Source: Haematococcus lacustris
Taxonomy: Eukaryota; Chlorophyta; Chlorophyceae; Chlamydomonadales; Haematococcaceae
DNA: 64,000 nt
Assembly (NCBI GenBank): GCA_030144725.1
Contig: JASKMD010000014.1
Span: forward strand, 7,280,284 to 7,344,283
Reading direction: 5' to 3'
Numbering within the stretch: the first letter of the stretch is position 1; every line of letters begins with the position of its first letter. The notes under the pieces were generated by a model. It searched no databases. It had not been told where the DNA came from and saw only the letters and a program-made list of their open reading frames with translations. This document shows, piece after piece, positions 1 through 32,067 of this stretch. Made by a program: the position numbers and the translations under genes.

Positions 1-2
1 TG

Positions 3-8545: not shown

Positions 8546-9458
8546 ACTTTTCGCCTCTCGCACTTTTCGCCTCTCGCACTTTTCGCAGCCTCCCGTTTCG
8601 CGTGGGTCGCGAGATAGCGCCTCCCGTTAGCACAGCTAGCGTTTTCGCAGCAGGAGCAGCCGGAGGAGCGTTGTTTCGCAGTTTTTGTTGCTAAGGCAGC
8701 AAGTCGCGAGTTTCAGCCTGCGGAGCAGCTAAACAGCAAGGAGCAGGAGCTGCGTTAAGGTGGTGTGGTCGTCTCTGTCTGTCTGCTCTCAGCCGCAGCC
8801 AGCCGCCAGCAGCCGCCAGCAGCCGCCAGCAGCCGCCAACGGCCGCCAGCAGCGCTTTTGCTCTTTTCGGCTTTCCGCTTCATAACGTCTGTCAGGTAGC
8901 GCCAGCCGCAGCCGTTTCTCTCAGGCGCCGCCACCTGAGCGCCTCATTCCAGCCGCCGCTACCTCGCAGCTGCCGAAGGTGTAACCGCTCCAACCGCCTC
9001 CAGCAGCCTTTCCAGCCGCAGGTCCTTTCCTGCTATCGTTGTGTGCAGCTGCTGTCGCTTCTTGTGCGAACCACAGCCAGCAGTTCGCGGGAGCCTACAG
9101 CGCTATCGGTTTCCTGAGGCGTCCGCCTTAACCGCTGCAGCTTCCGCCCAGCTGCCCTTCCCCCATCCTCTTCACCTTCTCCCCCCCTTCCTCCTCCCCC
9201 CCGCGTGCCTCGCCTTCTGCCGGCGCCTGTCGCGTCACTGCCAAGGAGACGACAACGGTCGGAGGCCCACCGCCGGGGTTTGCTCCACTGAATTCAGTGC
9301 GAGCCGGCGTACCTGAGAACCAAGCCTAGCCCCCGGGTCAATGGGGGAAGGCTGAGTCAAGTGCTCAACCAGTGCGCTTGACCCTTAGTTTGTGCCCGTC
9401 TCAAGCTCGCGTGTTGCCTGCGCCTGTGGCCCTCCAGGTTGCTTCGGCTTATCGCGTC
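8546..9458 (+). other. Probable 5' UTR of a LINE-type ORF1 element
   Basis: No convincing ORF. The segment opens with about three copies of a 16-bp motif (ACTTTTCGCCTCTCGC, 8,546-8,590), and has a short CAGCCGCCAG tandem run near 8,790-8,850. It abuts the truncated LINE unit on its left and leads into the ORF1-like gene on its right. Tandem motifs at a 5' end fit an internal promoter region of a non-LTR element; that role is inferred. Confidence 0.4.
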
Positions 9459-12312: not shown

Positions 12313-12886
12313 CCAGCACCAGCAGCACCAGCAGCAGCAGCGGGCTGGGGCTGGGGCTGGGGCTGGGGCTGGGGCTGGGGCTGGGGCTGGGGCTGGGGCT
12401 GGGGCTGGGGCTGGGGCTGGGGCTGGGGCTGGGGCTGGGGCTGGGGCTGGGGCTGGGGCTGGGGCTGGGGCTGGGGCTGGGGCTGGGGCTGGGGCTGGGG
12501 CTGGGGCTGGGGCTGGGGCTGGGGCTGGGGCTGGGGCTGGGGCTGGGGCTGGGGCTGGGGCTGGGGCTGGGGCTGGGGCTGGGGCTGGGGCTGGGGCTGG
12601 GGCTGGGGCTGGGGCTGGGGCTGGGGCTGGGGCTGGGGCTGGGGCTGGGGCTGGGGCTGGGGCTGGGGCTGGGGCTGGGGCTGGGGCTGGGGCTGGGGCT
12701 GGGGCTGGGGCTGGGGCTGGGGCTGGGGCTGGGGCTGGGGCTGGGGCTGGGGCTGGGGCTGGGGCTGGGGCTGGGGCTGGGGCTGGGGCCGTGCCTTCTC
12801 CGATGGTTTTGGATCGCCCACGCCTTACCCCACTCGAGGCCGGAAGTCGACTACATCATTTCTCCCGGGAGGCATACTGCAGATAG
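11571..12886 (+). CDS. Ser/Gln/Ala-Gly-rich ORF continuing in another frame
   Basis: After the ORF1 stop at 11,570 an overlapping frame (open from 11,363) runs to 12,886. Its product is low complexity: Ala/Gln-rich, a polyglutamine tract (12,238-12,340), then about 74 Ala-Gly dipeptides from a hexanucleotide array, and a short unique tail. No domain is recognised. It may be the C-terminal part of ORF1 separated by a frameshift within the tandem repeats, or not coding at all. A TGTAA at 12,914-12,918 followed by A5 at 12,925 could be the transcript end. Confidence 0.25.
12342..12788 (+). repeat. (GGGGCT)n hexanucleotide array, about 74 copies
   Basis: Nearly uninterrupted GGGGCT for about 447 bp, preceded by a CAG-rich stretch. 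The plus strand encodes Ala-Gly and the minus strand Gln-Pro dipeptides. Runs of four G every six bases can form G-quadruplexes on the plus strand. Confidence 0.95.
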
Positions 12887-12969
12887 CCCCAGGAAAGGCC
12901 GACTCATCGCCGTTGTAATCATTGAAAAACTCAAAGTTGCTGCGATGTTATAACTATTTGAAAAATCGC

Positions 12970-13890
12970 CCGAACCTGTACAGGGTCCTACCGACCCTGT
13001 ACAGGGTCCTGGGCCACAGGGTTCTGCCGCACGGCTACAGGGTCCTGCGACATACGTCTACAGGGTTCTGCCGCACGCCTACAGGGTCCTGTGACCCACG
13101 TCTACAAGGTTCTGCCGCACGGCTACAGGGTTTTGCGACCAACGTCTACAGGGTTCTGCCGCACGCCTACAGGGTCCTGCTACATTAGGCTACAGGGTCC
13201 TGCCGCACGCCTACAGGGTCCTGCTAAATTAGGCTACAGGGTTCTGTCGCACGCCTACAGGGTCTTGCGACACATGGCTACAGGGTTCTGCCGCACGCCT
13301 ACAGGGTCCTGCGACGTTTGTCTACAGGGTTCTGCCGCACGCCTACAGGGTCCTGCGACGTTTGGCTACAGGGTTCTGCCGCACGCCTACAGGGTCCTGC
13401 GACGTTTGGCTACAGGGTTCTGCCGCACGCCCACAGGGTCCTGCGACGTTTGGCTACAGGGTTCTGCCGCACGCCTACAGGGTCCTGCGACGTATGTCTA
13501 CAGGGTTCTGCCGCACGCCCACAGGGTCCTGCGACACACGGCTACAGGGTTCTGCCGCACGCCTACAGGGTCCTGCGACGTTTGGCTACAGGGTTCTGTC
13601 GCACGCCTACAGGGTCCTGCGACACAGTTTTTCAGGGTCCTGCCGCACGGCTACAAGGTTCTGCGACACGTTCTCACAGGGTTCTGCCGCACGCCTACAG
13701 GGTCCTGCGACACATGTCTACAGGGTTCTGCCGCACGCCTACAGGGTTGTGCGACCAACGTCTACAGGGTTCTGCCGCACGCCTACAGGGTCCTGCGACC
13801 AACGTCTACAGGGTTCTGCCGCACGGCTACAGGGTTGTGTGACCCATGTCTACAGGGTTCTGCCGCACGCCTACAGGGTCCTGCAGGTCA
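12970..13890 (+). repeat. Left 44-bp minisatellite array
   Basis: The unit is CTACAGGGTTCTGCCGCACGC (21 bp shown in two parts elsewhere: a CAGGGTTCTG half and a CAGGGTCCTG half), total about 44 bp, repeated about 20 times. The half-unit core CAGGGTCCTG is nearly self-complementary. The outer edge (12,993-13,008) has a 16-bp palindrome GACCCTGTACAGGGTC. 44 is not a multiple of three, so the long YRVLPHAYRVL-type frames are artefacts. Confidence 0.9.
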
Positions 13891-14019
13891 CACCGCTAGG
13901 TAGCTAAGTCATCCTATCACTAGTTGCTGATGGTGTGACAGTGGCAGCAGCAGCAACATGACAGTGACGCAGCCCTGTCATCCGTGCTTACTAGGTGCAG
14001 CACCGTGATTGATGTATGA

Positions 14020-17000
14020 CTAGCTGCGGCTGAGGCTGTGCGCTGGCACAAAGAACATACGGCCGTAGCCCTCCCCATCCTCAAAGCTGGTCACAAAGAC
14101 TGTGAAGATCTTGGTGGCATCAAACATATACCAATGCTCATCTCCATAGCCATGGTGCATGCTGCCCATGGCTGACCGCTGCGGGCGGTCCTCAACAGGT
14201 GGAAGGGGGTCAGCCTGCCGCTGTGATGCACTGGCTGCGAGCCTCTGGGACTTCCTGGCGCCACCTGTGCTGGCTGCCCCCGCTGCTGCCTGCTCCACGC
14301 CACGCTTTGCTGACATGTGTTGCTGTGGCCCACCTATACCGCTGGGTCCAGCACCCCCATCTGCATCCCCGTCTCCTGGTGGCTCTCCCCCCTGGCCGCC
14401 TGCCTCAGCCGCTGCGCCTGCTCCTGCTGCCTGCTGTGGCCTGGGAACAGCCTGACCAGTTGCTGCCACACATGAGGGGTGGGATGTAGGGCGTGTCAAG
14501 TAGATGCGGCTGACTGCTAGGCGTAGGAACACCCCAGGCAGCTTGGGGTGCTCCAAACGAACCCAGAACTGCACATGGCCAGCCCAAATGGCCCACTTGT
14601 CGTTATCGAGCCTGAACGGGATGCTGACCCAGGTGTTGTTGCGGGCTGAGGTGCGTTTGTACACACTGCTGAACACGATGGTGCCATTGCAGTCTGCTCG
14701 CTGGTAGTACCGCACTGGATACGGGGGTGCAGCGACCCGTGGAGCCTCCTTGGCCTCCTCCCCTGCCTCCCTTGCGGTTAGGGCCTCACCGAACACCTGC
14801 TTGACGTGCCATGGGCGCCATGGGGTGGCCTCGTCGCTTTTCTGCAGATCCTGGACTGCCTTCATGCAGCCCCTCATCATGGCACCCGGGCTGTTCCGCA
14901 GTGGGCACTCTGCACTGCCCGCTCCCAGCAGCAGGGCCTGCTGCCCGTCCTGTGTCAGCTCGTCCTTCAGGCGGGCCTTGTAGTCCTGCTGTGCCTCTGG
15001 CTCAGCCCGGTCAAGCAGCCTCTTGCTGGCGTTATGCCCGGCCACCCGCATGGCAATGTGGGCATCCAGCTGTGCTCCAGGAATGCCGCTGGTGGTGATG
15101 GACTTCAAGTCATGCAGGTCACGCTCGATCCAGAGCTCGCCAAACAGGCATGTCCTGCCCACATTGCTCTCTTGCATGAACAACCTGTGCACACCACAGC
15201 CATGATATCATGTTGATGCATGGTCTGCCTGCAGCATGCATGCATTGTTGATGGGTAAGGTTGGCCTGCATGTTACTGTTAAAACTCTCACCTGCAGGCC
15301 GTTGTGTGGAGGTTTGGGCAGACTTGGTCAGTAGGCACAGACAGCTTGTCCTTGTTGTCGCCATGCGCAGCTGGAAGCAGAGGATCACGGCGGCAGCGCT
15401 CCAACCTGGCTGCATAGGTCTTCAGATGTGCATAGCCTGCCTCCATCCCCGCAGGTGTGGCGCTATTCTCCGAGCCTGAATTGGGCAGACAAATCCTCAT
15501 TGTTAGGTATATGTTAGTCATCATGCACCGGGGGATTGTTAGGTATATGTTAGTCATCATGGGACCGTGCCTGTAGATGCTTGTTTGTAATTTACCTGGT
15601 GTCAAGTAGTGCAGCATAGCGCCCTCCAAGGCTGTCCACAACCCACGGTAGGGCTCTGGCAAAAGGTTGCCCCGCAACACGATGGGTGAGAAGTGCACAT
15701 ACCAGTGCTTGTAGTCCTCCATGCGCCATCCACTGCATGATGACATGGGCATTGCAGCACCAGGGCAATCATAAGCGTGTCATGACATGCACCTTGCATT
15801 GACAGCATCCTTGCCTGTCAGTTGTGACATGATTATGATATACTGCACAATATGATTATGGCTTACGTGCGGTTGGCAAGGTCTCCCAGGTCCCGTCCCA
15901 AGTCTGATGGTGATTGAATGGCTGCTCCACGCTTCACTATCTCACGCCGCACATCAATGTGAAGGCCATCTGCACTCATGAACCACTCCAGCTGGTGCTT
16001 GAGCAAGCCATACATGAAGCCGTGGTACACAGGCACCAGGTGTGCGAGCCGGGCGTCCAGGTGTTGCAGCAGCAGGGGCAGGAGGGGCTGGGCGTGGCAG
16101 CCCACCACCCTAGGTTCGCCTTGGGACCACCCATGGATGAAGGGGGCACCACGGCTCATGATCTGCTCGTGGGTGAACTTCATGCGCACGTCATAGATGA
16201 GCACATACTCCTGCAGTCCGCCACCGCAAGCAAGGATGGTGTGTGCCCAGGGATCCTTGTGTCTGATTTCAATAGCACATGCTGATGTGTGTGTCAAGTG
16301 TTCCATACCTCCCGGTTGGAGCCTGGTAGGGTCTGCAGCGTTGGCGAGTCGTAGCCAAGGGGCGCCTTCTCTGTAGGGGGGTTGGGGGGCTTGCTGATGT
16401 TGCAGTTGTAGCACATCTTCAGGGCGCTGTGGCCCATGCCCCTGGTCAAAGTGGCTCTACATGCACACAATCACGAAATTCATTCCTCAATGGTTGTAAT
16501 ATGTTTGTGGGTGGTACATGGCAGGGTACAAGTTGTATAGGGATAGACTGGACTGGGAGGTGGTGGAATCATTTGTAGGTGCAAGCTGTTGGCCTTTGTC
16601 TCACTCACGTGGCTGGGGTATCAGCGATCGATACCACTGGGACTCCATGGATGCGGACAGGCTGAACACGGGCGGGAGCCACACCATCAACACCTGGGCC
16701 TGGGTGTGGCTCCACTATCACACCCAGGTCACCCGGGCCCTCGATGTGCTTGCTGACTTCCTGGCAGATGGCTTTCATGTAGCCTGTCAGGTGAGACTGG
16801 TGCTTTCCTCCGTTGATGACGGCCAGCACTGAGCTGCACGCCCGCTTGCCGCACACCTCAGCCGGCACATCCAGCAGCCTCAACAGAATCACACCCACTG
16901 ACCAGGTGCCGTTCTTGCCCATGGTCATCCAGTCAACCCCTATCATGAAGTGGGCTGTGTTGGGGGAGGTGGCCACAACCTCTAGTAGCTTGGGCTGCAT

Positions 17001-18765
17001 CTCTCGCCATGCAGGGCCTGCCAAACAACAACATCATGGTATGGTGCATGTCACTGTACTAATCACCTGGCTATGTTGTGAATTCTATGCCAAGGTCAAC
17101 CCATGACCACTCACTTGCTCGAAATGAGCCAGGAGGTGGGTCCACGCCCCGAGCTCGCCTGAACCAGGTCATCACGTCCTTGCGCTCCATGATGTTCCGC
17201 ACCACTGTGTCCCAGCCGAACAGGGACATGCTCCACCGAGGCTTTAAGGTGAACTCTTGTGGGCTCCTTGTAACCAAGCAAGGGGCAGCATACAACCCAT
17301 GTATACCTGTACAAGTGTCAATAGAGCTTCACCATGCCCATGTAGATTGGTTTCACCTTTTTTGTTGTTCACATGGAAGCGAGGCGTCTCACAGTAGTCG
17401 CACTTGTCATCCTGGTGGGCGAGCCACTCAGACCTATGCATGCATGCACATGAAGGCAACCTTGACCCCAACAAACACCATGTGTAATGCGCCATGCATG
17501 CATAGCCTAATCCACACCCTTTCCCCTGATCTCACCGTCGTATTTTCGGGTAGGCGAAGCCTGGGCAGTACTTGTTGTTGGCCTTGTTGTCCTTGCCCGC
17601 GTTGCACACATGCACCTCGTACTCATTTGCGTGTTGGACGCCCTGCAAACTCATCAGCTGGTAGAAGCTGGTGATGAGGTTGAGATCAGGCTGGTTTGCA
17701 AGTAGCGCACGGATCAGCTTCAACACCCCCTTCATCTGCTCCTTGGTCAGCCTCATGTCCAAAAGCTGGCTCAGCCTGTCCAACAGGTCCTTGCCTGTCA
17801 AGGGGCAGTTCCTGTAATGGCATGCACAATGACAAGCAACTACTATATTGAACAACTCACTGCTTGTGATACTAATATCTGTTATTTCTAAGTACCTGAA
17901 CACGGGTTGGTGAAGGTTGGCATCAAGCTTGAACACCTTGCTTCGACGTGCCCTGGCGCCATCCCCCCCTCCTTCATCCCCCTCTGGACCCCACGGAGCT
18001 CCTGGACCTCCTGGACCTCCTGGACCTCCTGGGCCTCCTGGACCTCCTGGACCCCCGGGACCTCCTGGATACCCTTCTTCATCACTGTCTTCACTCCCAC
18101 TGTCATCACTACCACCTCCGTCCCCTCCTCCGTCGACTCCTCCCCTTCCTCCTACACCCCCCTCTTCTCTGTCTCCGCGCTGTCCCCCCCTGTTGTCCTC
18201 CTCTCCCCTCCCACACTGTTCGTCCCCTCCTCCCTGTCCTCTCCATGCACCCTCTGGAATCCTGCCACCCTCTTGTCCCGCTGGGGCTGCCTGATCCCTG
18301 CCTCCTTGCCCGTCCTCAGCCACCCCTCCGCTATGTCCTTGCCCGTCCTCATCCACCCCTCCTCCATCTCCACAGCTCCCCTGCACACATGTCGTCACAT
18401 CATGCGGACAACATGTGGCCTGCGGCGCAAATTGTCCGCGATGAGGTGCACGCATTAGCTGCCTCATGCGCACATGTACGTCAGCGCGTACTAACTAAAT
18501 GCAAGCGACATCTTACTGCAGACTCTTGCGATGTGTGTTGCTGAGCGTTTGGGGACTGGGCTTTCGCCTTAGCCTGCCTCTCCGCCCAAGCCTTCGCGCC
18601 TTCAGCCCCCACGAACTGGTGATGGCTCTTGGAACAGTGAGTGCGCATTCCTTTTATGCCGCCTGATACTCCGCACACTAGGCATTGATAGGCAGTCTTC
18701 ACCATGACTGCCTGTGTCTTGGGAAGCCTGGAGAGCAAATGGTCGCACTGTGTCCGCTGGGCCAT
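14020..18765 (-). CDS. CACTA/EnSpm-like DDE transposase, 11 exons
   Basis: My model has exons 18,765-18,517, 18,419-17,896, 17,811-17,536, 17,433-17,357, 17,255-17,115, 17,017-16,609, 16,456-16,309, 16,255-15,867, 15,732-15,596, 15,475-15,292 and 15,184-14,020. All introns are GT-AG and the 3,699 nt stay in frame (1,232 aa). The N-terminus has a C2H2 finger (C28, C31, H43, H48) and then a Gly/Asp-rich region with a collagen-like GGP run. Later come CDYC (361-364), the FMIGVDW block (D451), VVSIAD (D555), CYNC (574-577), a YHGFMYGLLKHQLEW block and FGELWIERDLHDLK (E861/E865). The order and the paired Cys blocks resemble Transposase_21-type CACTA transposases; the DDE assignment is inferred. 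It is probably nuclear and should bind element ends. No break is visible. Confidence 0.65.
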
Positions 18766-18915
18766 CGCGGCCCGCTGTCAGTGTACCCACCCGGCGTCGC
18801 TTGCTGGCCGACAAAGTGACTTTTGGTTAACTGTGGCGTGGACTCGAATTTTGTGAGTAAGCACCGCTACATCGTGTTGTGGCCGTCTTGCTAACCCGTA
18901 ACAACAGCCTTAAAA
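18766..18915. promoter_or_regulatory. Divergent promoter between transposase and acidic-protein gene
   Basis: Only 150 bp separate the two opposed start codons (18,765 minus, 18,916 plus), so both genes probably share a bidirectional control region. I see no clear TATA box. The A-rich TTAAAAATG context precedes the plus-strand start. Confidence 0.5.
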
Positions 18916-21846
18916 ATGTACCGCAACACGCTCGCCAAGAAGCCCACCGCCAAGAAGGTATAGTAATTCCTGTATCAATACCGCCTGCCTGCCGCGATGC
19001 CTTACCGTGCCAGACACCTTCATGCGTTCATTAACTCCATGAACTATCGTTGCTGCAGGTTAAGGCTGCAGCCCCTCGCACAGCTGACTCTGGGCACGAG
19101 TCCGATGAATTGCCTTTGGCCCAGCGACCCCATGAGCCTTTTGCCTCTTCTGTTGATGAAGGGGAGGGGGTGGGAGAGGAGGAGGAGCTGGAGGATGAGG
19201 GGGAGGGGGAGGAGGATGAGGGGGAGGGGGAGGAGGATGAGGGGGAGGAGGAGGAGGGGGTGGAGGAGGAGGAGATGGAGGGGGAGGAGGAGGAGGAGGA
19301 GGAAGAGAAGCAGAAGCAGGGGCCCGCCAAGAAACGGTCGCGCAAAGGGGGGAAGCAGGTCCCCGATGAGTTCAGCAAGATCGTCTATGCGCGGGTGAGC
19401 ATGGTGTTGCGTGCCTATGTTGCCTGATTTGCTGGTGTCACGTTGCCTGTGGTTACGTTGCCATGTGATGCCATGTGATGTGTAGCGACCATGTGTCACG
19501 TTGCCATGTGTCACGTTGCCATGTGTTGCCATGTGTCACGTTGCCATGTGATGTGTAGCGACCATGTGATTGCAGTTCAGACATCATGCACCCAACGCCG
19601 ACAAGCCCTTCAGCGTGTTGGGCAAATATGAGGTTAGTGTAGTGTTCACACAGCAATTGACCATAGCCTCAATTCATTACTGCCCATGTCACCTTGGTTA
19701 TCTATACCCAATGCATCCTTGCAGAAAGATGCCGTCAGTCTCTGGGGCAAGTTCGCCCCCAAATACATCCGGATGTGGTGCCCGCGTTCTGTGGGCCAGG
19801 TGATTGTGCAATGAATGGTGTAGCCATGTAACCAACCTCATTTGCCTTCTGATGTGAGTGTTTGTGAATCAGTATTGGTGTGTGTTGTGCAGTACACCAT
19901 CCCCGGCTGTGCACCAGGGGAATACCCCAAACTGGGCAGCAACTCGGTGGAGGCCAGGTGGAATGTCCCCATACGGGCAATCATCGGGCTCGTTTGGAAG
20001 GAATTCATCAAGGCCAACCCACCCTACCTGGCTTTGCTGAGCTACTGGATGTTGCTGGCGGCATTCAAAAAGTGGGTAGCATGCATTCACCCATAGCATG
20101 CACCCATAGCATGCAACCCATAGCATGCACCCATAGCATGCATCCACCCATCATGCACCCATAGCATGCATCCACCCATCATGCACCCATAGCATGCATC
20201 CACCCATCATGCACCCATAGCATGCATCCACCCATCATGCACCTCATCATCGGCCTGGCACCCTTGTACGTGTAGGTCATACGATTGGGTCAGACGTCCG
20301 ACCACTCCTAAGCAGCTGGCCAAAAAGCCGCAGACACCTCGTCAAACAGAAGCGGCCCAGAAGACACATGAGGGGTGGGAGTCGAAGTTTGGATGCCGGC
20401 TGTTGGAAGCCAAGGCAGCAGCGGTGGCTGCTGGCATTCCGTTCAGCAATGACGATGTTGTGCCCACTGACATGGAGCCATTCCTGCCTGTAGCAGCTAA
20501 GCTGAAAGCAGACTCAGGTGAGTGGTGCCCGGACCCTGTGGTGACACTATCACACCCAGGTCACCAGGACCCTGTGGTGAGGTGCCAGGACCCTGTAGGT
20601 GTCACCAGGACCCTGTGGTGAGGTGCCAGGACCCTGTAGGTGTCACCAGGACCCTGTAGTGAGGTGCCAGGACGCTGTAGATGTCACCAGGACCCTGTAG
20701 TGAGGTGCCAGGACCCTGTAGGCCAGGACCCTGTGGAGCTAACCCATGACATTGCGTGCACCCCTGATCGCAGAGAACTGGAAGAAACCAGACCAGACGC
20801 CAGCAAGCAAGCACCCTGAAGCTGCCAAGGCCTGGAAAGCAATGTCACAGACATTCTATGACCAGTTTGACGAGGTGGCCCTAGACCTAGCAAGGTCTAT
20901 CCCCGGCGGTAGCAACGCAGACCCGGTGAGTATCTCGTTACAATGCTGGTAGAGGTATGTGATTTTACATGTTGGCCGAGTATGTGTGCTTTGCTTGATG
21001 CTGGCAGGTGGCGGCGGAGGCGCAGGCCAAGACGCTGCTGTTGGAGGCATGCACCCAGGACCAATCCTGGTGGAAGGCAAGTAGCTGACATCTTACGAGC
21101 ATACCCTACCATGCCCTACCATACCACATACCATGCCTTACCTTCCAAGCTTCATATTGCCACCTTGTTGTGTGCAGTTGACGACCAAGACCCGGCTTGT
21201 GGAGTACAAGGAGAAACTGTTGCTGGAGCTGCAGGATGCCAGCGGTGCAGGGCAGCAGGCAGGCCCAGCGGCACCCCCTCGCCGAGGGGGCAAGGCAGCT
21301 CACCCCACACCAGCTGCAGCCAAGCGTAAGGCTCTGGGAGGCGGGGGTGCCAAGAAGAGGCCTGCAGGCCGAGAAGCAGGGGCAGAGGTAGAGGAGCTCG
21401 CCGCTGCGCTAATGACAGGCTTGGCAGCAGGGGCAGCAGTGGCGGCAGAGGCAGCAGCAGGGGCAGCAGGGGTAGGGGCAGGGGCACAGGCAGGGGCAGG
21501 GGCAAAGGCAGGGGCAAAGGCAGGGGCAAAGGCAGGGGCAAAGGCAGGGGCAAAGGCAGGGGCAAAGGCAAGGGGTAGACGCAGTGGTGGCGCAGTGGTG
21601 GCAGCAGGGGCAGTGGGGGCAGCAACAGCTGTGGCAGGGGCAGAGGCAGGGGCAGAGGCAGGGGCAGGGCCAGTGGCACCCGGCACAGCAGGGGCAGAGG
21701 CAGGGGCAGGGCCAGTGGCAACCGGCACAGCAGGGGCAGAGGCAGGGGCAGGGGCAGGGGCAGTAGCAGAGGCAGTGGCAGCAGCAGAAGCAGATGCAGA
21801 TGCAGCAGTGGCAGCAGCAGCAGCACGCTGTGACTTGTTTGATTGA
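18916..21846 (+). CDS. Transposon-borne acidic/Ala-rich nuclear-type protein, 9 exons
   Basis: Model exons: 18,916-18,957, 19,059-19,394, 19,576-19,632, 19,725-19,799, 19,893-20,071, 20,276-20,517, 20,774-20,925, 21,008-21,076 and 21,178-21,846. These sum to 1,821 nt and encode 606 aa without a stop. The last intron has a GC donor (GCAAGT). Residues about 41-95 are a Glu/Asp/Gly tract followed by KKRSRKGGK, a likely nuclear localisation signal. The middle (exons 3-8) is globular, Trp/Lys-rich and unrecognised. The C-terminus is an AGAK/AGAE tandem region. A DNA-binding accessory role like the second protein of CACTA elements is possible but is inference from position. Confidence 0.6.
19436..19575 (+). 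repeat. Intronic tandem repeat (CATGTGTCACGTTGC type)
   Basis: Short imperfect repeats of GTTGCCATGTG/TGTCAC fill intron 2 of the acidic-protein gene, ending at its 3' splice site. Confidence 0.75.
20085..20242 (+). repeat. Intronic tandem repeat (CACCCATAGCATGCATCCA type)
   Basis: About six copies of an approximately 30-bp unit built from CCCATAGCATGCA and CCACCCATCATGCA in intron 5 of the acidic-protein gene. Confidence 0.85.
20527..20745 (-). repeat. Array-motif repeats inside an intron
   Basis: Intron 6 of the acidic-protein gene holds about nine CCAGGACCCTGT motifs alternating with GGTGAGGTG and AGGTGTCA spacers. The core is the reverse complement of the left flanking array motif and matches the 25,526-25,727 and 27,137-27,795 arrays. 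Confidence 0.85.
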
Positions 21847-21949
21847 TGATATGCTAGGATTCATGGTATCATACACATGTCGTACATTGACAATGAAAAT
21901 GAATGAGCCATGAACAAGGCAGGGCACCAGGTGCAGGACACCAACTGGC

Positions 21950-22060
21950 GACTAGGCAGTTCAAACCTTGCACGAGGTTTTGTGACCTAGCAAAGGGTTT
22001 CATAGACCTAGTGCAGGGTTTCATAGACTGTGTGCAAGGTTTCAGTGAACCCGTGTAAAG
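21950..22060 (+). repeat. Degenerate CAAGGTTT/CAGGGTTTC repeats between genes
   Basis: About five 20-22-bp units (GTGCAGGGTTTCATAGACCTA and variants) between the two plus-strand genes. A related set lies at 23,965-24,060 in an intron. A TGTAA at 22,053-22,057 may end the upstream transcript. Confidence 0.7.
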
Positions 22061-22239
22061 GGATCCAGGTGACTAGATAGTGTTCACAAATACCCGAAGG
22101 AGGCATAACACGCGACAATACTGAACACTGGGTTGATGCAAGCAGTGCCTCAGGTTTGTAGTGATGATGATCCCATGCCATTTGACTAGACATTCGGAAG
22201 TAAATTGAGGCCACGCGCACACTAGCAAGGCTACGCACA

Positions 22240-25200
22240 ATGGCAGCAGCAGCAGACAATAAGGCATTGGAAGCAGTCGCCGTTGACCTGATTAACTTCC
22301 TGGCGCGATGCGGCCCCCGCAATCAGGTAAACGCAAAATCTAGCCTAACACGCCACATCGGTAGCACTACACTCATCCACGATGGCTACTTGCATGTAGG
22401 ATGGGACAGGCCTGGCCAGCATGAATGCCCCCTGGCGTGATGTGTGTTGTGGATTTTGCGTGGCCAAAACTGTTGTGCCCTGTGATATGGCCACACAGAG
22501 TAAGACAGAGGCGATAGTGGACAGGTGAGTGCCCATGCACCCCAATGCTCATGAGGACGTGCCCAAGTGTGTGACTTGTTTGCAATACAGGACCTGGAAA
22601 TTGGTTGCAACGAAGTACCCCCAACCAGGTTCCCCAAAACTGCTCAAGTGGGACAAGTACTTCGCCTACTTCAACGACCACTTCGAGGGCATACAAGAAC
22701 CCAGTCCCCCTGAGGGGTTAAAGCCATTCGCTAGCTTGTGGAACATATACAAGCAAGGTGATGAGTGGGCATGGCTAACTATTTGTCAGCAGGCCTTCAA
22801 GTAGCCATGCCTTCATGTCACTATTAACTATCATGTGCAGATGCGGAGATGAAGAGTCAAGGAGACACAGATTATGTGTACCTATGTGAAGTGCAGGGCA
22901 GAAAGGAGTGTGCTACTTTGACAGAGTTTGTGTTGAGCACAGAGCCCCCTACCCTTCCCTCTCCAGCCCCCTCCCCTGCCCCACAGCCATCCCCAGCAGC
23001 AGGAGTGCAGCAGCTTCCTGCCCCCTCCCCTGCCCCCCAGCCATCCCCAGCAGCAGGAGTGCAGCAGCCCCCTGCCCCCTCCCCTGCCCCCCAGCCATCC
23101 CCAGCAGCAGGAGTGCAGCAGCCCCCTGCCCCCTCCCCTGCCCCACAGCCAGCCACAGTAGCAGGTGCGCAGCAGCACCCAGCCCCAACCACTGTCCAAC
23201 AGCCAGCCTCAGCAGGGGTTGTGCGACAGCCCCCCGCCACACCAACAGCGGGTGTACCTGGGTTGAAGGCCCCCACCACAGGCCTAGGAACTGCCCTGCC
23301 TGCAGGTGTGCAGCGGAGCCCTGCCCACTCACCTGTCCTGCGGCGTGCACCAGCACGTGTGCAACTCAGCCTTGCCCCCTCCATTCCCCTGTTGCCTACA
23401 CCAGCAGCAGGAGCACAGCATCAGCACCATCCGCCAGTGCAGCCCCACCGCCAGACACGCAGAGGGCAGTGGCCACAGGTGGGCACCAGCACCCGGGCGA
23501 CAGGCACAGCAGCAGGTGGGCAGCAGCACCAGCATCAGCAGCAGGACCAGCGACAGGTGACTGAAGAGGAGCAGCAGCAGCCTGGAGGGGAGGGTGCTGG
23601 TCCCTCATCATCCAAGAGGCCGAGGCCTGCCGAGGATCAGGTAGGATCACAACATTACAGCACATAGGAGCAAGACAGCATCATAAAGCATTGTGACAGT
23701 GGCTCAGATTCCCATTGCTTCATTTGCCATTGCAGGCCCTCATACAGTACCTGATTCAGAAGGTGGACACCGTGCAGGACACAGTCAACAGATTGGAGGT
23801 GAGACCCAAGCTGCCAAAGAGGCATAACTGCATTTCCAACTTGTAAACGACCACACTGAACGTAGGATGAGCTGGTGGGCAGAAGGAGGCTCCACGTGTT
23901 GGCAAACACAGCCCTGACTGGAAGTGGCCAGTCAGGAGAGCAGGTGATCAGCTACAAACAGCCTACAACAGGTTTAAACCTTGTGCAAGGTTTCGTTGAC
24001 CTTGTGCAGGGTTTCAGCTACGTGGTGCAGGGTTTCATTAACCTAGTGCAGGGTTTAACTGACTCCAGCTGTGGCTCAGGAGGATATGTGTGGATTGTGT
24101 TTGCAGGCAAGCACAGGAGGCACCCTGCTGCATGGAGGAGCAGTGCGGTTTCCCAAGAATACACAAGTACGAGTGGCATAAAAACCTGATATGAATCCAT
24201 AGTGACGGGTACTTGTGAGCATGTCGTGCATTGCTGCCTTGCACGCAGGGAATGATGTATCAGCTGCCCACCTTGCTGCCATACACAGGGGATGTCTACC
24301 AGCCTCATGAGCTAGAGCAGTGTCGCCGAGCAGCTCTAGTTAATGGCCTGACCATCTTCCAGCTGCCCCAGCTAGCCATAGATATGGCAGCGGTGGTTGC
24401 GGCCAGCATCTTGATCACCAGGGTCTATAACCACATGGTGTTCAGCTCGGTCAATGCCAACAGCAAGACACAGTATGGCACTGGCCAGAGGGTGCAGGTG
24501 GTGTTGGCCAAGTCGGACAAGAACAGCAGTGGCGACCTAGACACCACCCTAACGCTGTTGACAGACAAGTACAACGCGGCTGTGTACAGCGCGCTGACAG
24601 CAGAGAAGAAGAAGGAGGTAAGAGACAGATAGATTAAAGTGTGCAGCAGATGACACAAGCCACAACAGTAGTACATAGCCATTGCTGCAGAAGCATTTCC
24701 TAACTTACCAAGAGTCAGGGCTGCATGAAGCACAATAGACAGCACTCTGGGTGTGTTTGCAGGTGGATGAGGCCAAGAAGGTGTTGGCCTTGTACCTCAC
24801 TCTCCTGCAGCCGGTGCTGAGGCAGCTGCTGGGCCGCCCCCTGAACGCCCTAGCAACCATCATCACTGACCCCACCTGGCAGCGTCGCCTGAACAGGACG
24901 GGGAAGCTGGTGACTACACCGGCCGAGCAGCTGGCTCAGGCCCAGGCTCCCCACACCGACTTCCTCCCTGTTGGCCCAGGGATGGATGACGGCCTGGTGT
25001 TCCTGCTGGCTCTCCAGGACTTCCCTCTGGTTGCCTACATGGGCAGCCACAAACTGTCCCAGTTGGCTGCAGCCCATTGCTGCCGGACGGCTGATGGTAA
25101 AAAGCAAGTGGTGGAAGTGAAGGACATGGACGCCCTGGCCCTGACCTTGCCACATCAACTGGGCACAGAGGTACTGGTGAAAGCAGGGCAGCTGGTGTTA

Positions 25201-25461
25201 TTCCGAGGCAACACAGTACATGCTGGCAACGTGGGGGTGGCTGGCTCATGCTGCGCCAGGCTGTATGGCTTTGGGCGGCCAGACACGGTGGCTGACAACA
25301 CCACCATGAACACCTCTGAGCTAGGGGACTTGTACCATGGGTTGTTTCAGCCCATCCAGGATGAGGGCATTGGGCCCAAGATGGCAGACTGGAACAGGCG
25401 CGGCATGGCAGGCCAGTGGGTCAGAATCTCAGAGCCATACAGGCCTGATCAGCGTATTTGA
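22240..25461 (+). CDS. Transposon-borne 2OG-Fe(II) dioxygenase-like protein, 9 exons
   Basis: Model exons: 22,240-22,326, 22,499-22,524, 22,591-22,757, 22,841-23,640, 23,736-23,798, 23,866-23,943, 24,107-24,166, 24,249-24,617 and 24,763-25,461. These total 2,349 nt and encode 782 aa, with all introns GT-AG. The middle has in-frame PAPSPAPQPSPAAGVQQ repeats and a basic SSSKRPRP motif; a short helix follows (ALIQYLIQKVDTVQDTVNRLE region). The last 230 residues look like a double-stranded beta-helix oxygenase: HTD at 614-616 (HxD), a GSHKL turn, GQLVLFRGNTVHAG with the distal His 703, and Arg 716. These would be Fe(II) and 2-oxoglutarate ligands. The substrate is unknown; a base-modifying (TET/JBP-like) role is a hypothesis. 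Confidence 0.6.
22950..23160 (+). repeat. In-frame 60-bp Pro/Gln repeats in the dioxygenase gene
   Basis: Three to four copies of a 60-bp unit (CCCTCCCCTGCCCC... GCAGCAGGAGTGCAGCAG) encode PAPSPAPQPSPAAGVQQ. The period is a multiple of three. Confidence 0.85.
23965..24060 (+). repeat. Intronic CAGGGTTTC repeats
   Basis: Four roughly 24-bp units with the core GTGCAGGGTTTC in intron 6 of the dioxygenase gene, related to the 21,950-22,060 repeats. Confidence 0.75.
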
Positions 25462-25525
25462 ACGATTGACAATGCATGGACAGCATGGGCTGGGGTTGGG
25501 CTACAGCAGAGGGTCTGGTGTGGTG

Positions 25526-25727
25526 CCAGGACCCTGTGGACCAGGACTCTGCGGTGTGGAGCCAGGACCCTGTGGTGAGGGACCAGGACCCTGTGGTGCC
25601 AGAACCCTGTGGTGAGGGGCCAGGACCCTGTAGGTGTGCAGCAGGACCCTGTGGTGAGGTGCCAGGACCCTGTGGTAACAGGACCCTGTGGTGTGGTGCC
25701 TGAACCCTGTGGGCCAGAACCCTGTAG
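25526..25727 (-). repeat. Right array, GT-rich variant, proximal block
   Basis: Units of CCAGGACCCTGTGGTGAGGTG type, starting about 65 bp after the dioxygenase stop. The core is the same CAGGACCCTG as in the 44-bp arrays but the spacers differ. Confidence 0.85.
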
Positions 25728-27136
25728 GCGTGCGGCAAAACCCTGTAGACGTGGGTCGCACAACCCTGTAGGCGTGCGGCAGAACCCTGTAGACATGTGT
25801 CGCAGGACCCTGTATGCGTGCGGCAGGACCCTGTAGACATGTGTCGCACAACCCTGTAGGCGTGCGGCAGAACCCTGTAGACGTAAGTCGCAGGACCCTG
25901 TAGGCGTGCGGCAGGACCCTGTAGACATGTGTCGCAGGACCCTGTAGGCGTGCGGCAGAACCCTGTAGACAAACGTCGCAGGACCCTGTAGGCGTGCGGC
26001 AGGACCCTGTAGACATGTGTCGCAGGACCCTGTAGCCGTGCGGCAGAACCCTGTAGACGTTGGTCGCAAAACCCTGTAGGCGTGCGGCAGAACCCTGTAG
26101 ACATGTGTCGCAGGACCCTGTAGGCGTCCGGCAGAACCCTGTAGACGTGGGTCACACAACCCTGTAGGCGTGCGGCAGAACCCTGTAGACGTTGGTCGCA
26201 CAACCCTGTAGGCGTGCGGCAGAACCCTGTAGACATGTGTCGCAGGACCCTGTAGCCGTGCGACAGAACCCTGTAGTTATTTGTCGCAGGACCCTGTAGG
26301 CGTTCGGCAGAACCCTGTAGCTAAACGTCGCAGGACCCTGTAGGCGTGCGGCAGAACCCTGTAGACGTGGGTCGCACAACCCTGTAGCCGTGCGGCAGAA
26401 CCCTGTAGTTATTTGTCGCAGGACCCTGTAGGCGTGCGGCAGAACCCTGTAGCTAAACGTCGCAGGACCCTGTAGGCGTGCGGCAGAACCCTGTAGACGT
26501 GGGTCGCAAGACCCTGTAGGCGTGCGGCAGGACCCTGTAGACATGTGTCGCAGGACCCTGTAGGCGTGCGGCAGAACCCTGTAGACAAACGTCGCAGGAC
26601 CCTGTAGGCGTGGGCAGGACCCTGTAGACAAACGTCGCAGGACCCTGTAGGCGTGCGGCAGGACCCTGTAGACATGTGTCGCAGGACCCTGTAGCCGTGC
26701 GGCAGAACCCTGTAGACGTTGGTCGCACAACCCTGTAGGCGTGCGGCAGAACCCTGTAGACATGTGTCGCAGGACCCTGTAGGCGTGCGGCAGAACCCTG
26801 TAGACGTGGGTCACACAACCCTGTAGGCGTGCGGCAGAACCCTGTAGACAAACGTCGCAGTACCCTGTAGGCGTGCGGCAGGACCCTGTAGACATGTGTC
26901 GCAGGACCCTGTAGCCGTGCGGCAGAACCCTGTAGACGTGGGTCGCAGGACCCTGTAGGCGTGCGGCAGAACCCTGTGAGAATATGTCGCAGGACCCTGT
27001 AGGCGTGCGGCAGAACCCTGTAGACGTTATCGCAGGACCCTGTAGGCGTGCGGCAGGACCCTGTATACAAACGTCGCAGGACCCTGTAGGCGTGCGCCTG
27101 GACCCTGTAAACAAACGTCGCATGACCCTGTAGCCC
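25728..27136 (-). repeat. Right 44-bp minisatellite array
   Basis: About 32 copies of the reverse complement of the left array unit (GGACCCTGTAGGCGTGCGGC plus AGAACCCTGTAGACATGTGTCGCA). Together with the left array it forms a large inverted repeat around the three genes. Confidence 0.9.
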
Positions 27137-27795
27137 CAAACCTGGTGGTATGGTGCCAGGACCTGTGGGGTGTTGCCAGGACCCTGTGTGCCAGGACCCT
27201 GTGGTGTGGTGCCAGAACCCTGTGGTGTGGTGCCAGGACCCTGTGATGCCAGGACCCTGTGGTGTGGTGCCAGAACCCTGTGGTCCAGGACCCTGTGGGT
27301 GTGCAGCAGGACCCTGTAGGCCCAAACCTGGTGGTGTGGTGCCAGGACCCTGTGGGTGGTGCCGGGACCCTGTGTGCCAGGACCCTGTGGTGAGGGACCA
27401 GGACCCTGTGGTTCCAGGACCCTGTCATGTGGTACCAGGACCCTGTTGGCCAGGACCCTGTGGTGTGGTGCCAGGACCCTGTGGTGAGGTGCCAGGACCC
27501 TGTGGTGCCAGGACCCTGTGGTGAGGTGCCAAGACCCTGTGGGTCAGGACCCTGTAGGTGTGCAGCAGGACCCTGTGGTATGGTGCCAGGACCCTGTGGT
27601 GCCAGAACCCTGTGGTGTGGTGCCAGGACCCTGTGTGCCAGAACCCTGTGGTCAGGTGCCAGGACCCTGTAGGTGTGCAGCAGGACCCTGTGGTGAGGCA
27701 CCAGGACCCTGTGGTGCCAGAACCCTGTGGTGAGGTGCCAGGACCCTGTGAGCCAGAACCCTGTGGTGTGGTGCCAGGACCCTGTGTGGAAAGGC
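27137..27795 (-). repeat. Right array, GT-rich variant, distal block
   Basis: About 35 copies of a short CCAGGACCCTGTGGTGTGGTG-type unit (18-21 bp). It is the same variant as 25,526-25,727, so the 44-bp block is sandwiched between two blocks of the variant. Confidence 0.85.
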
Positions 27796-27804
27796 ACTCA
27801 TCGT

Positions 27805-27824
27805 AGGACCCTGTACAGGGTCCT
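27805..27824. repeat. 20-bp perfect palindrome at outer edge of right array
   Basis: AGGACCCTGTACAGGGTCCT is self-complementary over all 20 bases. Related copies lie at about 27,954-27,975 (one mismatch type) and 28,000-28,013. It joins the two orientations of the array core motif. Confidence 0.9.
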
Positions 27825-28022
27825 GGAACACATAGTCAAAAGCATCCAAACGGGGTCAACAGGACCAACCACAAGCTTTGTAGGAATCCTAACAGGGTTC
27901 TATCACATAGGGATGCAAGGAATGATTAAAACATCTACACTCATCAGGTACACAGGACCCTGTACCGGGTCCTACGACCATGATGTCGCTAGGAACCTGT
28001 ACAGGGTCCTAGGACACGGGCC

Positions 28023-28314
28023 ATAGCTCATCACTGGCTTGGACTTTTTGCATGCCATCTACTAGGTTGGGCAGCTGTAACCACCCTTTACAATCGCTCA
28101 TACTCATAATTCATGAAAAATCACTTTGGTCACACGGTGCCAACTCCCTTAGCCAAAATCAGGGTCACAGCCCCACACCTGGCCCAGCAACTCGACACCG
28201 AGTGAGAATTACACTTTGGCCCAAGAGAGTCTTGTCATCCTCTAGGTCACAGCAACCCACATACCAAGTTTCAGACCTCAACTCTCAGGTTTTTCATACC
28301 AGCCAGGCCTTAAT
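28023..28314. other. Unassigned junction sequence
   Basis: I see no gene or repeat here. It lies between the last array motif and LINE-type sequence and may contain the true end of the transposon. Confidence 0.5.
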
Positions 28315-28863
28315 TTGCACGAGTGCCGACCCGTGCTCTTTACCCTCTTTCCAACGCCCACCACCTTCCAGCCCAGCGCCCAGGGGGCTTTTGTGTCCCG
28401 AGCGTATGCGCCTTGCTCTGTCCCACCACGAGGGGTGCATCTACCCCACATCCCTCTTCCCCACCAGCAGCTCTCTGCCCCCCTGAACCCCCCTTGGGCC
28501 GCCCCTCCCCCCCTTGTTATTCCTCCCGCTGTCCATCCCGTGCCTCTTGAGGGGTCTGTTGCCACTGGCTCCCTTGCCGGTATTCCCCCATCAGCCTCTC
28601 CGCGCTCCCCGGGGCACATGGGGTTGCTGGGCAAGGCCCTCTTGAAGGGCGCGGTGCTGGCCTCCAAGGGCAAGCTCGCTGCCCGTAAGCTGAGAGATGC
28701 CACAGCTAGGGGCGTAGCCGCAGCCGGGCAGTGGGTGGGTGGGGAACCTTCCGCCAGCTCTCCCTCCCTTGACCCCATGGACGCCGAGGCAGCGGCCCCC
28801 ACCGCCTCTTGCCGCACGGAGGTCACGGGGCCTGGCGCAGTTGCCCATCGGGGCTGGCGGTGA
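28315..28863 (+). CDS. Pro/Ala-rich ORF, possible LINE ORF1 part
   Basis: A 183-codon frame without a convincing ATG start. It begins Pro-rich and ends with a basic helical stretch (GLLGKALLKGAVLASKGKLA). No domain is recognised. Its base composition and its position upstream of the LINE endonuclease suggest an ORF1 fragment or an exon, but it could be noncoding. Confidence 0.25.
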   Translation: MHECRPVLFTLFPTPTTFQPSAQGAFVSRAYAPCSVPPRGVHLPHIPLPHQQLSAPLNPPWAAPPPLVIPPAVHPVPLEGSVATGSLAGIPPSASPRSPGHMGLLGKALLKGAVLASKGKLAARKLRDATARGVAAAGQWVGGEPSASSPSLDPMDAEAAAPTASCRTEVTGPGAVAHRGWR

Positions 28864-29509: not shown

Positions 29510-30199
29510 GTGCGGGTTGGGCCCGGTGAGCTGCAGGGTAGTCAGCCTCCCCGCTGGCTTGACACCGCCGCGAGGGCACCTCCGCGCCCCTCCCCGGATG
29601 ACAGGAGGGCTAGGCGGGAGGAGCGGCAGCGGGTGGCTCAGTGTAGGTCGAGGCGAGGCAACACGCAGCCAGCTACCCAGCCAGCCAGAGGGGGGCCTAG
29701 CCGGCGCCGGTATGGCATTCCCTCTTCCGGTTCCAGCTCTGAGGAGTGGGAGGCACGGCGTGAAGGGCACCAGCAAGCTGGCAGGCAGCGAGCTGCGCAG
29801 CTTGGCCATGGGTCCCCACACGTGCGCCGCTACGGGTTGCTCAGCCCCTCTGTTAGCCTGGCCAGCTCGCTGGGGGCCTCCTGTGATAGCCCTGTAGTTG
29901 AGCCAGCAGGGCCCCGGGAGGGGAGGTTGAGGGTGCCTAAGCGGCAGCAGCCCGAGCAGGCAGCTCAGCCTGGGGAGGAGGTCGAGCAGCTCGGTCCTCT
30001 GCCCCTGCGGCCCCCGCTAGCCATCTATTCCCGTGAGCCTCGGGTCCGCCTGCGCCGCCCGGGGGCCAAGTTGGCGTGCATTGAGGCCACCCCGCCCCCA
30101 CCCCCCGGCCCTCCTCCTTTGCCAGGCCCGCCTCCCCTTCCCAGCCCACCCGCCCTCCTCTACACACGCGTAGCCCGCGCGGGGGCAGGCCAGGACTAG
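29510..30199 (+). CDS. LINE ORF1 C-terminal part
   Basis: About 229 codons, open without an ATG near its start. A strong polypyrimidine tract and TTTCAG at 29,440-29,446 just upstream look like a 3' splice site, so this may be a downstream exon. The product is Arg/Pro-rich and basic with no recognised fold. It contains a GSQPPRWLDT module that is also present in the C-terminal half of the LINE pol units (around 1,640 and 5,445). Its stop is at 30,197-30,199 and the endonuclease ORF starts two bases later, typical of closely packed LINE ORF1/ORF2. Confidence 0.45.
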   Translation: MRVGPGELQGSQPPRWLDTAARAPPRPSPDDRRARREERQRVAQCRSRRGNTQPATQPARGGPSRRRYGIPSSGSSSEEWEARREGHQQAGRQRAAQLGHGSPHVRRYGLLSPSVSLASSLGASCDSPVVEPAGPREGRLRVPKRQQPEQAAQPGEEVEQLGPLPLRPPLAIYSREPRVRLRRPGAKLACIEATPPPPPGPPPLPGPPPLPSPPALLYTRVARAGAGQD

Positions 30200-30201
30200 C
30201 C

Positions 30202-30710
30202 ATGCAGCGCCCAGGTGTGGCCGCCAAGTTCTTGGCAGTCACCCTCAACGTGCAGGGCCTTGCCCAGCCGCACAAACTGCAGGCCCTGCTTGACTGGGCC
30301 GCTGACAGCCCGGCGCAAGTGGTGTTCCTCCAAGAGTGCCATAGGGCGGAGAGCGTGTGGCAGTGGGCAGAAGCCCACTCGGGGGCCAAGCCCGCCTGGC
30401 GGGGGCAGTGGTTTTACACCCCTGGCACCGGCAGCTCCCAAGGCTGCCTGGTATTGGTCAAGCCCTCCACCATCCTCCGGGGGTGCACCCAGGTGCAGCT
30501 GCAGGCAGAGGGGGCCCAGGGGCGGGTGCTGCGGGTAGACGGGGAGCTCGCAGGCATGCCGGTGTCCCTAGTGTGCGTGTACGCCCCGGCGCAGCAGGCA
30601 GAGCGGCCAGCGTTCCACGCAGAGTGCCTCCCCGCTTGCCTCCCGCCAGCCGCCGACCGCCGCCTCCTCCTCATGGGGGGCGACTTCAACTGCATCCTAG
30701 CCCCCGTGGA
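30202..30710 (+). CDS. LINE ORF2 N-terminus: APE-type endonuclease (cut by gap)
   Basis: Starts with ATG at 30,202, two bases after the previous stop. Motifs of an exonuclease-endonuclease-phosphatase domain appear in order: TLNVQGL (Asn), VVFLQECH (Glu), SQGCLVLVK, VSLVCVYAP and, just before the gap, LLMGGDFNC (Asp and Asn). This enzyme nicks target DNA to prime reverse transcription. The frame is intact for 169 codons and then runs into 500 N, so the RT part is not visible. It may belong to the same or a related family as the RT units at 1-8,545. Confidence 0.75.
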
Positions 30711-31210
30711 NNNNNNNNNNNNNNNNNNNNNNNNNNNNNNNNNNNNNNNNNNNNNNNNNNNNNNNNNNNNNNNNNNNNNNNNNNNNNNNNNNNNNNNNNN
30801 NNNNNNNNNNNNNNNNNNNNNNNNNNNNNNNNNNNNNNNNNNNNNNNNNNNNNNNNNNNNNNNNNNNNNNNNNNNNNNNNNNNNNNNNNNNNNNNNNNNN
30901 NNNNNNNNNNNNNNNNNNNNNNNNNNNNNNNNNNNNNNNNNNNNNNNNNNNNNNNNNNNNNNNNNNNNNNNNNNNNNNNNNNNNNNNNNNNNNNNNNNNN
31001 NNNNNNNNNNNNNNNNNNNNNNNNNNNNNNNNNNNNNNNNNNNNNNNNNNNNNNNNNNNNNNNNNNNNNNNNNNNNNNNNNNNNNNNNNNNNNNNNNNNN
31101 NNNNNNNNNNNNNNNNNNNNNNNNNNNNNNNNNNNNNNNNNNNNNNNNNNNNNNNNNNNNNNNNNNNNNNNNNNNNNNNNNNNNNNNNNNNNNNNNNNNN
31201 NNNNNNNNNN
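30711..31210. other. Assembly gap (500 N)
   Basis: Exactly 500 unknown bases, the usual placeholder for a gap of unknown size. It removes the rest of the LINE and possibly the N-terminal part of the Fanzor-like gene. Confidence 0.99.
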
Positions 31211-31496: not shown

Positions 31497-32067
31497 GGTG
31501 CGGCACGAACGCACTGCCCGAAGCTGCCCGGGCGCGTGGTGCTGGTGCATGAGTTTCGTACCAGCCGGGTCAGCTCTGCCCGCACCAACGTGGTGCAAGG
31601 TCAAGCAGAGTCCTTCAGGTGAGAGACCTCAGATGCATTCGCACTGTAGGAGTGGAGTCATTGCATAGCTGTAGAATGGCATCGCACACAGCAGCCTAGA
31701 CTGTGCCCAGTTCAGGCTATACATGGCATGGCTCAACACGTTGTTTAGCAATCTTACAAGTGAGCATTGATCTATGTCGCCTTGCAGGTGGCTGTACCCG
31801 GTGCGCAGCATGGCGACGCGGTCCCGGATCCGGGGCTTGATGTGCTCTACAAGCAATGTCATCAAGCGCAGCTTCTACGACCGAGACGTGTCAGCCGCGC
31901 TGAACATCGCCCGCATTGCAGCCGGGCCGGGCCGCCCACGCGAGCTCAGCAGCTGGCTGGGCCGCCCCGCCATGCCTAACCCAGGCACAGTGGGCCAGGA
32001 GTGGGTGCAAGTGCGCGACAGAGGCCTGCTGCGGAAGTGGCAGCGGCGGCACCAGCGGCAGCTGTAG
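31497..32067 (+). pseudogene. Fanzor (eukaryotic TnpB-like) C-terminal fragment
   Basis: Two exons, 31,497-31,618 and 31,788-32,067, join in frame across a GT-AG intron. The product reads GRVVLVHEFRTSR, a RuvC-II motif with the catalytic Glu (codon 31,551), and after the intron RGLMCSTSN then FYDRDVSAALNI, the RuvC-III motif with its Asp (near 31,885). TnpB/Fanzor nucleases share E-x-TS, zinc-ribbon and RD-x-x-AA-x-NI in this order. The first CxxC of the zinc ribbon is missing (SRVSSAR instead) and the second pair has only one Cys. A stop at 31,494 in this frame and the gap upstream leave no RuvC-I or N-terminal domain, so this is a remnant or an incomplete view. A basic tail (LLRKWQRRHQRQL) ends the protein. 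Confidence 0.6.

Follow-up and report, generated by a model that had tools for sequence, protein, structure and literature searches.

In a 64-kb stretch of Haematococcus lacustris DNA (contig JASKMD010000014.1; hereafter the window, in which all coordinates are given) we describe a 15,495-bp mobile unit carrying a putative transposase gene (g1), a gene for an acidic then basic protein (g2) and a gene for a predicted dioxygenase (g3). Its mobility is backed by defined ends, a terminal repeat, a 2-bp target duplication, inverted arrays, a recurring gene order and many copies. Our preferred reading, which we hold to be probable, is a CACTA-like cut-and-paste DNA transposon of H. lacustris of which the dioxygenase gene is a regular part. 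A preliminary description of the window had proposed that some 15 kb, from 12970 to 28022, form one mobile unit; this was borne out, since genes and arrays share sharp ends, an inverted terminal repeat and a 2-bp duplication. The proposed interval lies within the element and proved too narrow, as homology between copies reaches 12831 and 28325. The features are the following, in window positions:

12829..12830, no strand: target duplication CC, left (end comparison)
12831..28325, no strand: whole transposon, 15,495 bp; homology between copies begins and ends at these positions
12831..12845, + strand: left terminus CACTCG, 9 bp short of the terminal repeat in other left ends
12970..13884, + strand: left subterminal array, 44-bp unit, 34 cores ACAGGGTYCTG
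14020..18765, - strand: g1, putative transposase, 11 exons, 1,236 amino acids (aa), spliced frame
18766..18915, no strand: 150-bp gap between the divergent g1 and g2
18916..21846, + strand: g2, acidic then basic protein, 9 exons, 606 aa, one GC-AG intron, spliced frame
20560..20735, - strand: small array of the core ACAGGGTYCTG inside a g2 intron
22240..25461, + strand: g3, predicted PhyH-type 2-oxoglutarate (2OG)/Fe(II) dioxygenase, 9 exons, 782 aa; H614, D616, H703, R716
25519..27786, - strand: right subterminal arrays, inverse in orientation to the left array; 44-bp part 25715-27133
27801..28010, no strand: palindromic copies related to AGGACCCTGTACAGGGTCCT
28011..28325, - strand: unique right end, with the terminal repeat CACTCGTGCAAATTAAGGCCTGG read inward from 28325
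28326..28327, no strand: target duplication CC, right (end comparison)

Ends, target duplication and subterminal arrays

To locate the ends, we compared the window with the surroundings of ten other copies, picked for a full-length-looking g1. A single gene model (P0032) gave the first hint of the right end; the other copies then supplied both ends. Homology sets in at window position 12837 in seven of the ten copies and, by a separate alignment, in an eighth (C49), and it stops at 28325 or at most 5 bases beyond in seven (C157, C182, C175, C420, C127, C136 and C64). For C127 no left end was found in the alignment of its fetched stretch. The termini are CACTCG..CGAGTG and, in the comparison of the window with the other copies, form a terminal inverted repeat that is imperfect and about 20 bp long. 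The other copies begin at the left with CACTCGCGCCGATTAAGGCCGG and at the right, reading inward, with CACTCGTGCAAATTAAGGCCTGG or slight variants of it. In the window copy CACTCG is followed directly by AGGCCGG, which makes this left terminus 9 bp shorter than the other left ends. The full form was seen in 14 other left ends, eight of them by alignment and six by a pattern search that demands the 9 bp and is therefore blind to their loss. The possible activity of the element, raised in the preliminary description, agrees with the open genes of the window copy, but is not established for this copy because its left terminus lacks these 9 bp.

As for the target duplication, the flanking dinucleotides match in all nine copies for which both ends were available (CC, CC, TA, AA, TA, AA, CA, TA and TA), and the flanking trinucleotides match in none of them; when the nine left and right dinucleotides were paired after shuffling, nine matches arose in 23 of 100,000 trials. 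With a gene-less derivative added to the nine copies, a 2-bp target duplication is present in 10/10 both-end copies. Two of the insertion targets are palindromes centred on TA (L024/L033 for C49 and L028/L035 for C64), which hints at a target preference. The window sequence, which alone was examined for it, shows no long inverted repeat in the immediate flanks. A (GGGGCT)n microsatellite of about 75 units (window 12342-12789) adjoins the left end of the element.

The opposite orientation described for the minisatellite arrays was confirmed by counts of the core ACAGGGTYCTG, which occurs 34 times forward and 0 times reverse in 12970-13890, once forward and 91 times reverse in 25481-28022, eight times, all reverse, in the g2 stretch 18801-21900, and 0 times in the remaining parts of the 64 kb. 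When aligned, the left and right 44-bp arrays are reverse complements at about 86-89%. Inverted subterminal repeats are found in other copies too, with the exceptions of C147, whose right half has no reverse core, and C420, where the left half holds most of the reverse cores. The CpG observed/expected ratio is 0.30-0.67 in most stretches of the window, that is, depleted; it is 0.80-0.85 in the 44-bp arrays and 0.02 in the 21-bp array.

Three genes and their recurrence in the genome

The models of g1, g2 and g3 were rebuilt with explicit splice sites and have no internal stops; 25 of their 26 introns have GT-AG borders, the exception being a GC-AG intron in g2. All three close in frame as previously described, with the lengths given for g2 (606 aa) and g3 (782 aa) retained and that of g1 corrected from 1,232 to 1,236 aa. 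Among homologous proteins, of which 77 were placed on the window, P0005, P0006 and P0010 back the C-terminus of g3, and a similar one is found in P0051-P0053.

In g1 we identified by eye a C2H2-like finger (residues 28-49), the candidate catalytic residues D455, D559 and E865 or E869, with D559 within ADTPA and the E in ELWIER, a CxxC motif (CYNC, 578-581) and an H-rich stretch (684-690). The order D(T)PA...CxxC resembles that of CACTA transposases. The CxxC between the second D and the last E is invariant in 8/8 aligned g1 rows, in which the catalytic D, D and E are by-eye assignments; the candidate second motif is spaced H-x5-H, the pattern of the CACTA/Mirage/Chapaev/Transib (CMCT) group, with Plavaka counted in, being H(3-4)H, and P0067 and P0068 have Y in place of the first H of the candidate motif. 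Between g1 and g2, the 150-bp gap is presumably a shared promoter. The g2 protein, a candidate for binding the arrays, gave no significant family match in a scan of the profile library.

That g3 encodes a dioxygenase, as the preliminary description had it, is supported by its match to PhyH (PF05721) at 25.0 bits, above the gathering cut-off of 22, and by an intact HxD...H...R. The HxD...H metal ligands and the downstream 2OG-binding R are invariant in all 13 aligned dioxygenases, which belong to two families; at E ≤1 PhyH is matched by 13/13 of them and Tet_JBP (PF12851) by 0/13, with the second-family protein P0051 reaching only 14.7 bits for PhyH. By these profile and motif comparisons g3 is assigned to the 2OG/Fe(II) dioxygenases, closer to PhyH than to TET/JBP. 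NCBIfam and PHROGs gave nothing credible for the scanned proteins, and a sequence-profile search against the PDB gave no credible match (8zyb, E 0.29, over the distal-His stretch, not significant); the AlphaFold model of the dioxygenase (P0006 with 12 homologues) had a mean predicted local distance difference test score (pLDDT) of 31 and was unusable. One gene model, P0055, to which the stretch was assigned by reading, joins a second-family dioxygenase to a hAT dimerisation domain (1/13 members, best E 2e-12); the two may be neighbours by chance, or the dioxygenase may belong to a hAT element.

Protein searches, in each of which about 8,000 candidates were scored, returned almost exclusively the host species: 18/19 rows for g1 are named Haematococcus lacustris, P0070 being nameless, as are 6/6 rows for g2 and all 57 dioxygenase rows for g3, among them P0002, which is 100% identical over 96% of the queried dioxygenase region. 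No relatives were found in viral and prokaryotic contigs, where records of the window's own genome may be excluded.

Across copies the order is left array, g1 (-), g2 (+), g3 (+), right array. In the ten copies, g1 is followed by g2 where present and then by the dioxygenase, with g1 opposite to the others; although these copies had been picked by g1 alone, dioxygenase sequence lies on the g2 side, opposite to g1, in 10/10. This sequence is a C-terminal fragment in C182 and is interrupted by about 3.8 kb close to its end in C157; the fetched stretch of C2 holds only N-terminal dioxygenase exons, a core being listed 18.6 kb from g1. C157 and C182 have a reduced g2 and C147 a diverged one; in C420 the gene is barely recognisable, and in the fetched stretch of C127 it was not found.

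Genome-wide co-occurrence of the genes, set beforehand as the point on which the proposal could fail, was then assessed for 60 g1 loci taken among the matches listed, the window's own locus not included. At 37 of the 60 a dioxygenase lies upstream and divergent within 25 kb, many at 10-11 kb, against 3 same-strand and 2 wrong-side neighbours in the controls. Conversely, 36 of the 107 listed dioxygenase places have a listed g1, some copies being partial. Independent support for the unit comes from database gene models that run through the same order: antisense g1 through g2 to g3 (P0001, P0016), antisense g1 to g2 (P0075), g2 to g3 (P0019, P0039, P0041, P0077) and g1 into the left array (P0064, P0072).

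The exact left 20-mer occurs 509 times in the genome and its reversed control 0 times, and all 40 right-end matches scored among 1,208 first-look candidates are at least 96% identical. When the lists were compared by hand, a dioxygenase was found within 6 kb upstream, on the same strand, at 5 of the 40 listed right ends; since so few have a nearby dioxygenase, non-autonomous derivatives are probably common. One such gene-less derivative, in L039, measures 3,864 bp, has both array ends, no gene match and the flanks TT/TT, and for the right ends L036-L038 no left end was found within 4.2 kb. Copy numbers may be doubled, because this assembly (308 Mb) has roughly double the length of the published Haematococcus assembly, given as 151 Mb and described as diploid in the available excerpt of PMC7617258.

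The ratio of nonsynonymous to synonymous divergence (dN/dS) against the window is 0.28-0.40 for g1 in 10/10 copies (dS 0.03-0.12), 0.46-0.61 for g2 in the six of ten copies with at least 100 codons, and 0.28-0.37 for the g3 core in the five of ten with at least 100 comparable codons (dS 0.085-0.123, 0 stops). With the g1 and g3 values well below 1, we read both transposase and dioxygenase as kept by selection until recently. Seven of the ten copies carry the window type of dioxygenase and three (C147, C420, C127) a second, P0051-like type; the two types are 43-53% identical, depending on the alignment, and stand beside similar transposases. The g1 of the second-type elements (dN 0.026-0.036, dS 0.09-0.12) is about as close to the window as that of several first-type elements (C175, C136, C49, C2 and C64; dN 0.021-0.035, dS 0.08-0.10). 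Since g1 divergence is equal while the dioxygenases are only 43-53% identical, the pattern is read as an exchange of the right half between subfamilies. TET genes have been transferred between fungal transposons as well, according to an excerpt of Kojima (2025, PMC12730594).

Sequences surrounding the element

Just right of the element a frame begins (30085-30710) that resembles a LINE-type endonuclease, and it is followed by 500 bases of N (30711-31210). A further frame (31540-32060) ends in FYDRDVSAALNIARI, presumably in the manner of Fanzor/TnpB proteins, and a similar stretch ends P0076. A Ty3/gypsy-like stretch lies at 53600-56900, and several database gene models fuse Ty3/gypsy-like retroelement domains to the transposon genes. 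The window stretches 1-8546 and 43870-64000 contain large duplications that are nearly identical (98-99%), namely a tandem repeat of 3.8 kb and multi-kb units that recur.

Class membership and the possible role of the dioxygenase

The closest known case is that of fungal DNA transposons with TET/JBP dioxygenases, in which a 2OG/Fe(II) dioxygenase gene likewise lies beside the transposase, EnSpm and Plavaka elements included, and the dioxygenase moves between elements (Kojima, 2025; PMC12730594). The present element differs from them in its green algal host, a PhyH rather than a Tet_JBP match, a transposase without a family match, a 2-bp duplication with CACTCG ends, and two diverged dioxygenases within one family. 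With the plant CACTA elements En/Spm and Tgmt (PMC2613891, PMC4158355) it shares CAC..GTG ends, a short terminal repeat, subterminal repeats, a transposase with a second protein thought to bind the repeats, and a size in their range of 8-20 kb; it differs in lacking a tnp2/Transposase_21 match, in having 44-bp minisatellites as subterminal repeats and an extra dioxygenase, in the 2-bp rather than 3-bp duplication and in the divergent g1 and g2. PlavakaB (PMC12730594) resembles it in a 2- or 3-bp duplication, CA..TG ends and, in some elements, a dioxygenase, but ends in CATCA..TGATG, and g1 is without any Pfam match. In the partial listings of open-licence PMC literature, no paper was found that deals with this Haematococcus element or with a transposon carrying PhyH.

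The comparison with CACTA/EnSpm drawn in the preliminary description holds in part. Termini of the form CAC..GTG with a short inverted repeat were found, the left repeat of the window copy being 9 bp short, as were inverted subterminal repeats. Transposase_21 was not matched by g1, and the duplication is of 2 bp in 10/10 copies, where CACTA/EnSpm have 3 bp; 2 bp fits the 2-5 bp of the wider CMCT group (PMC12730594, PMC2613891, PMC4158355, excerpts). Because g1 matches no Pfam family, the label CACTA is drawn from the termini, the arrays and the motif reading, in which the element resembles that class.

In the mechanism that we propose, g1, as a transposase of the DDE type, would cleave the element at its CACTCG ends and insert it with a 2-bp stagger; g2 would bind or hold the 44-bp arrays, like TNPA in En/Spm; and g3 would remove or alter a silencing mark, either on chromatin or on the bases of the DNA, and thereby keep the element expressed or excisable. 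That g3 may counter host silencing is suggested by the fungal parallel, by the selection on the gene and by its regular place in the element. More tentatively, and with the balance of our judgement somewhat against it, a PhyH-type dioxygenase could have been recruited independently of the fungal TET/JBP enzymes as an eraser or modifier of DNA or chromatin marks; elements without the enzyme would spread poorly, and two diverged versions would for this reason have been kept and exchanged.

Several observations weigh against the CACTA-like transposon with a regular, silencing-related dioxygenase. Neither g1 nor its scanned homologues have a Pfam, NCBIfam or PHROG match, Transposase_21 (tnp2) included, eight homologues giving two other families at chance level, and the AlphaFold model of the transposase (P0061 with 7 homologues; mean pLDDT 31) was unusable. 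The aligned g1 exons contain one or two stops in 5/10 copies, and 23/60 g1 loci have no listed dioxygenase on the expected side, some elements being truncated. In three gene models (P0027, P0046 and P0050) g3 is fused to g1 on a single strand, contrary to the common order; these are taken for adjacent, rearranged or mis-predicted copies. Finally, comparison of the copies gives about 2-fold more transitions at CpG than at other C/G sites, and also about 1.6-fold more transversions; because the latter are raised too, the CpG excess does not establish a methylation signature.

Among the rival explanations, a separate superfamily outside the CACTA/Mirage/Chapaev/Transib group would account for a g1 without profile match, the H-x5-H spacing with Y for the first H in P0067 and P0068, and the 2-bp instead of 3-bp duplication. 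We regard this as a minority possibility, in view of the CAC..GTG ends, the subterminal arrays, the invariant CxxC and a D(T)PA...CxxC order as in CACTA transposases. It is unlikely, in our estimate, that the dioxygenase is a captured host gene travelling as a passenger or benefiting the host, with no role in transposition or silencing. In its favour, small molecules are the usual substrates of PhyH-family enzymes, no more than 5 of the 40 listed right ends have the gene within 6 kb, and the gene-less derivative possesses both ends and a target duplication; on the other side stand the dN/dS of 0.28-0.37 in copies on many contigs, the retention of two about half-identical dioxygenases beside similar transposases, and a protein search that found no relative outside Haematococcus (7,998 candidates scored).

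Slightly less credit still is given to g3 as a far-diverged TET/JBP enzyme, which would make the element the algal counterpart of the fungal TET+ transposons. The same kind of association exists in fungi, PE-type TET/JBP proteins were recognised there by structure-based comparison, and Chlamydomonas has a TET homologue, CMD1 (Kojima, 2025, PMC12730594, excerpts); however, Tet_JBP matches 0/13 dioxygenases at E ≤1 where PhyH matches 13/13, and g3 has HxD where the PE type has HxE (PMC12730594, excerpt). That three unrelated genes merely lie between unrelated minisatellites, as the very repeat-rich Haematococcus genome (PMC7617258, excerpt) might allow, has a negligible probability and was rejected on the common ends, which, like the common order, recur in independent copies.

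The preferred reading, a CACTA-like transposon equipped with a dioxygenase gene, accounts for many 'hypothetical protein' entries of the industrial alga Haematococcus as transposon genes or as models reading into the arrays. Demethylase-like enzymes on transposons are already known from fungi. If the independent recruitment proposed above were true, a PhyH-type enzyme would act on the genome, and transposon counter-silencing would have evolved convergently. Whether the enzyme acts on 5-methylcytosine, 6-methyladenine, histones or small molecules becomes testable. A second case from a green alga, apparently independent and involving a different family of dioxygenases, would point to a general strategy in which large DNA transposons escape silencing by bringing along an eraser.

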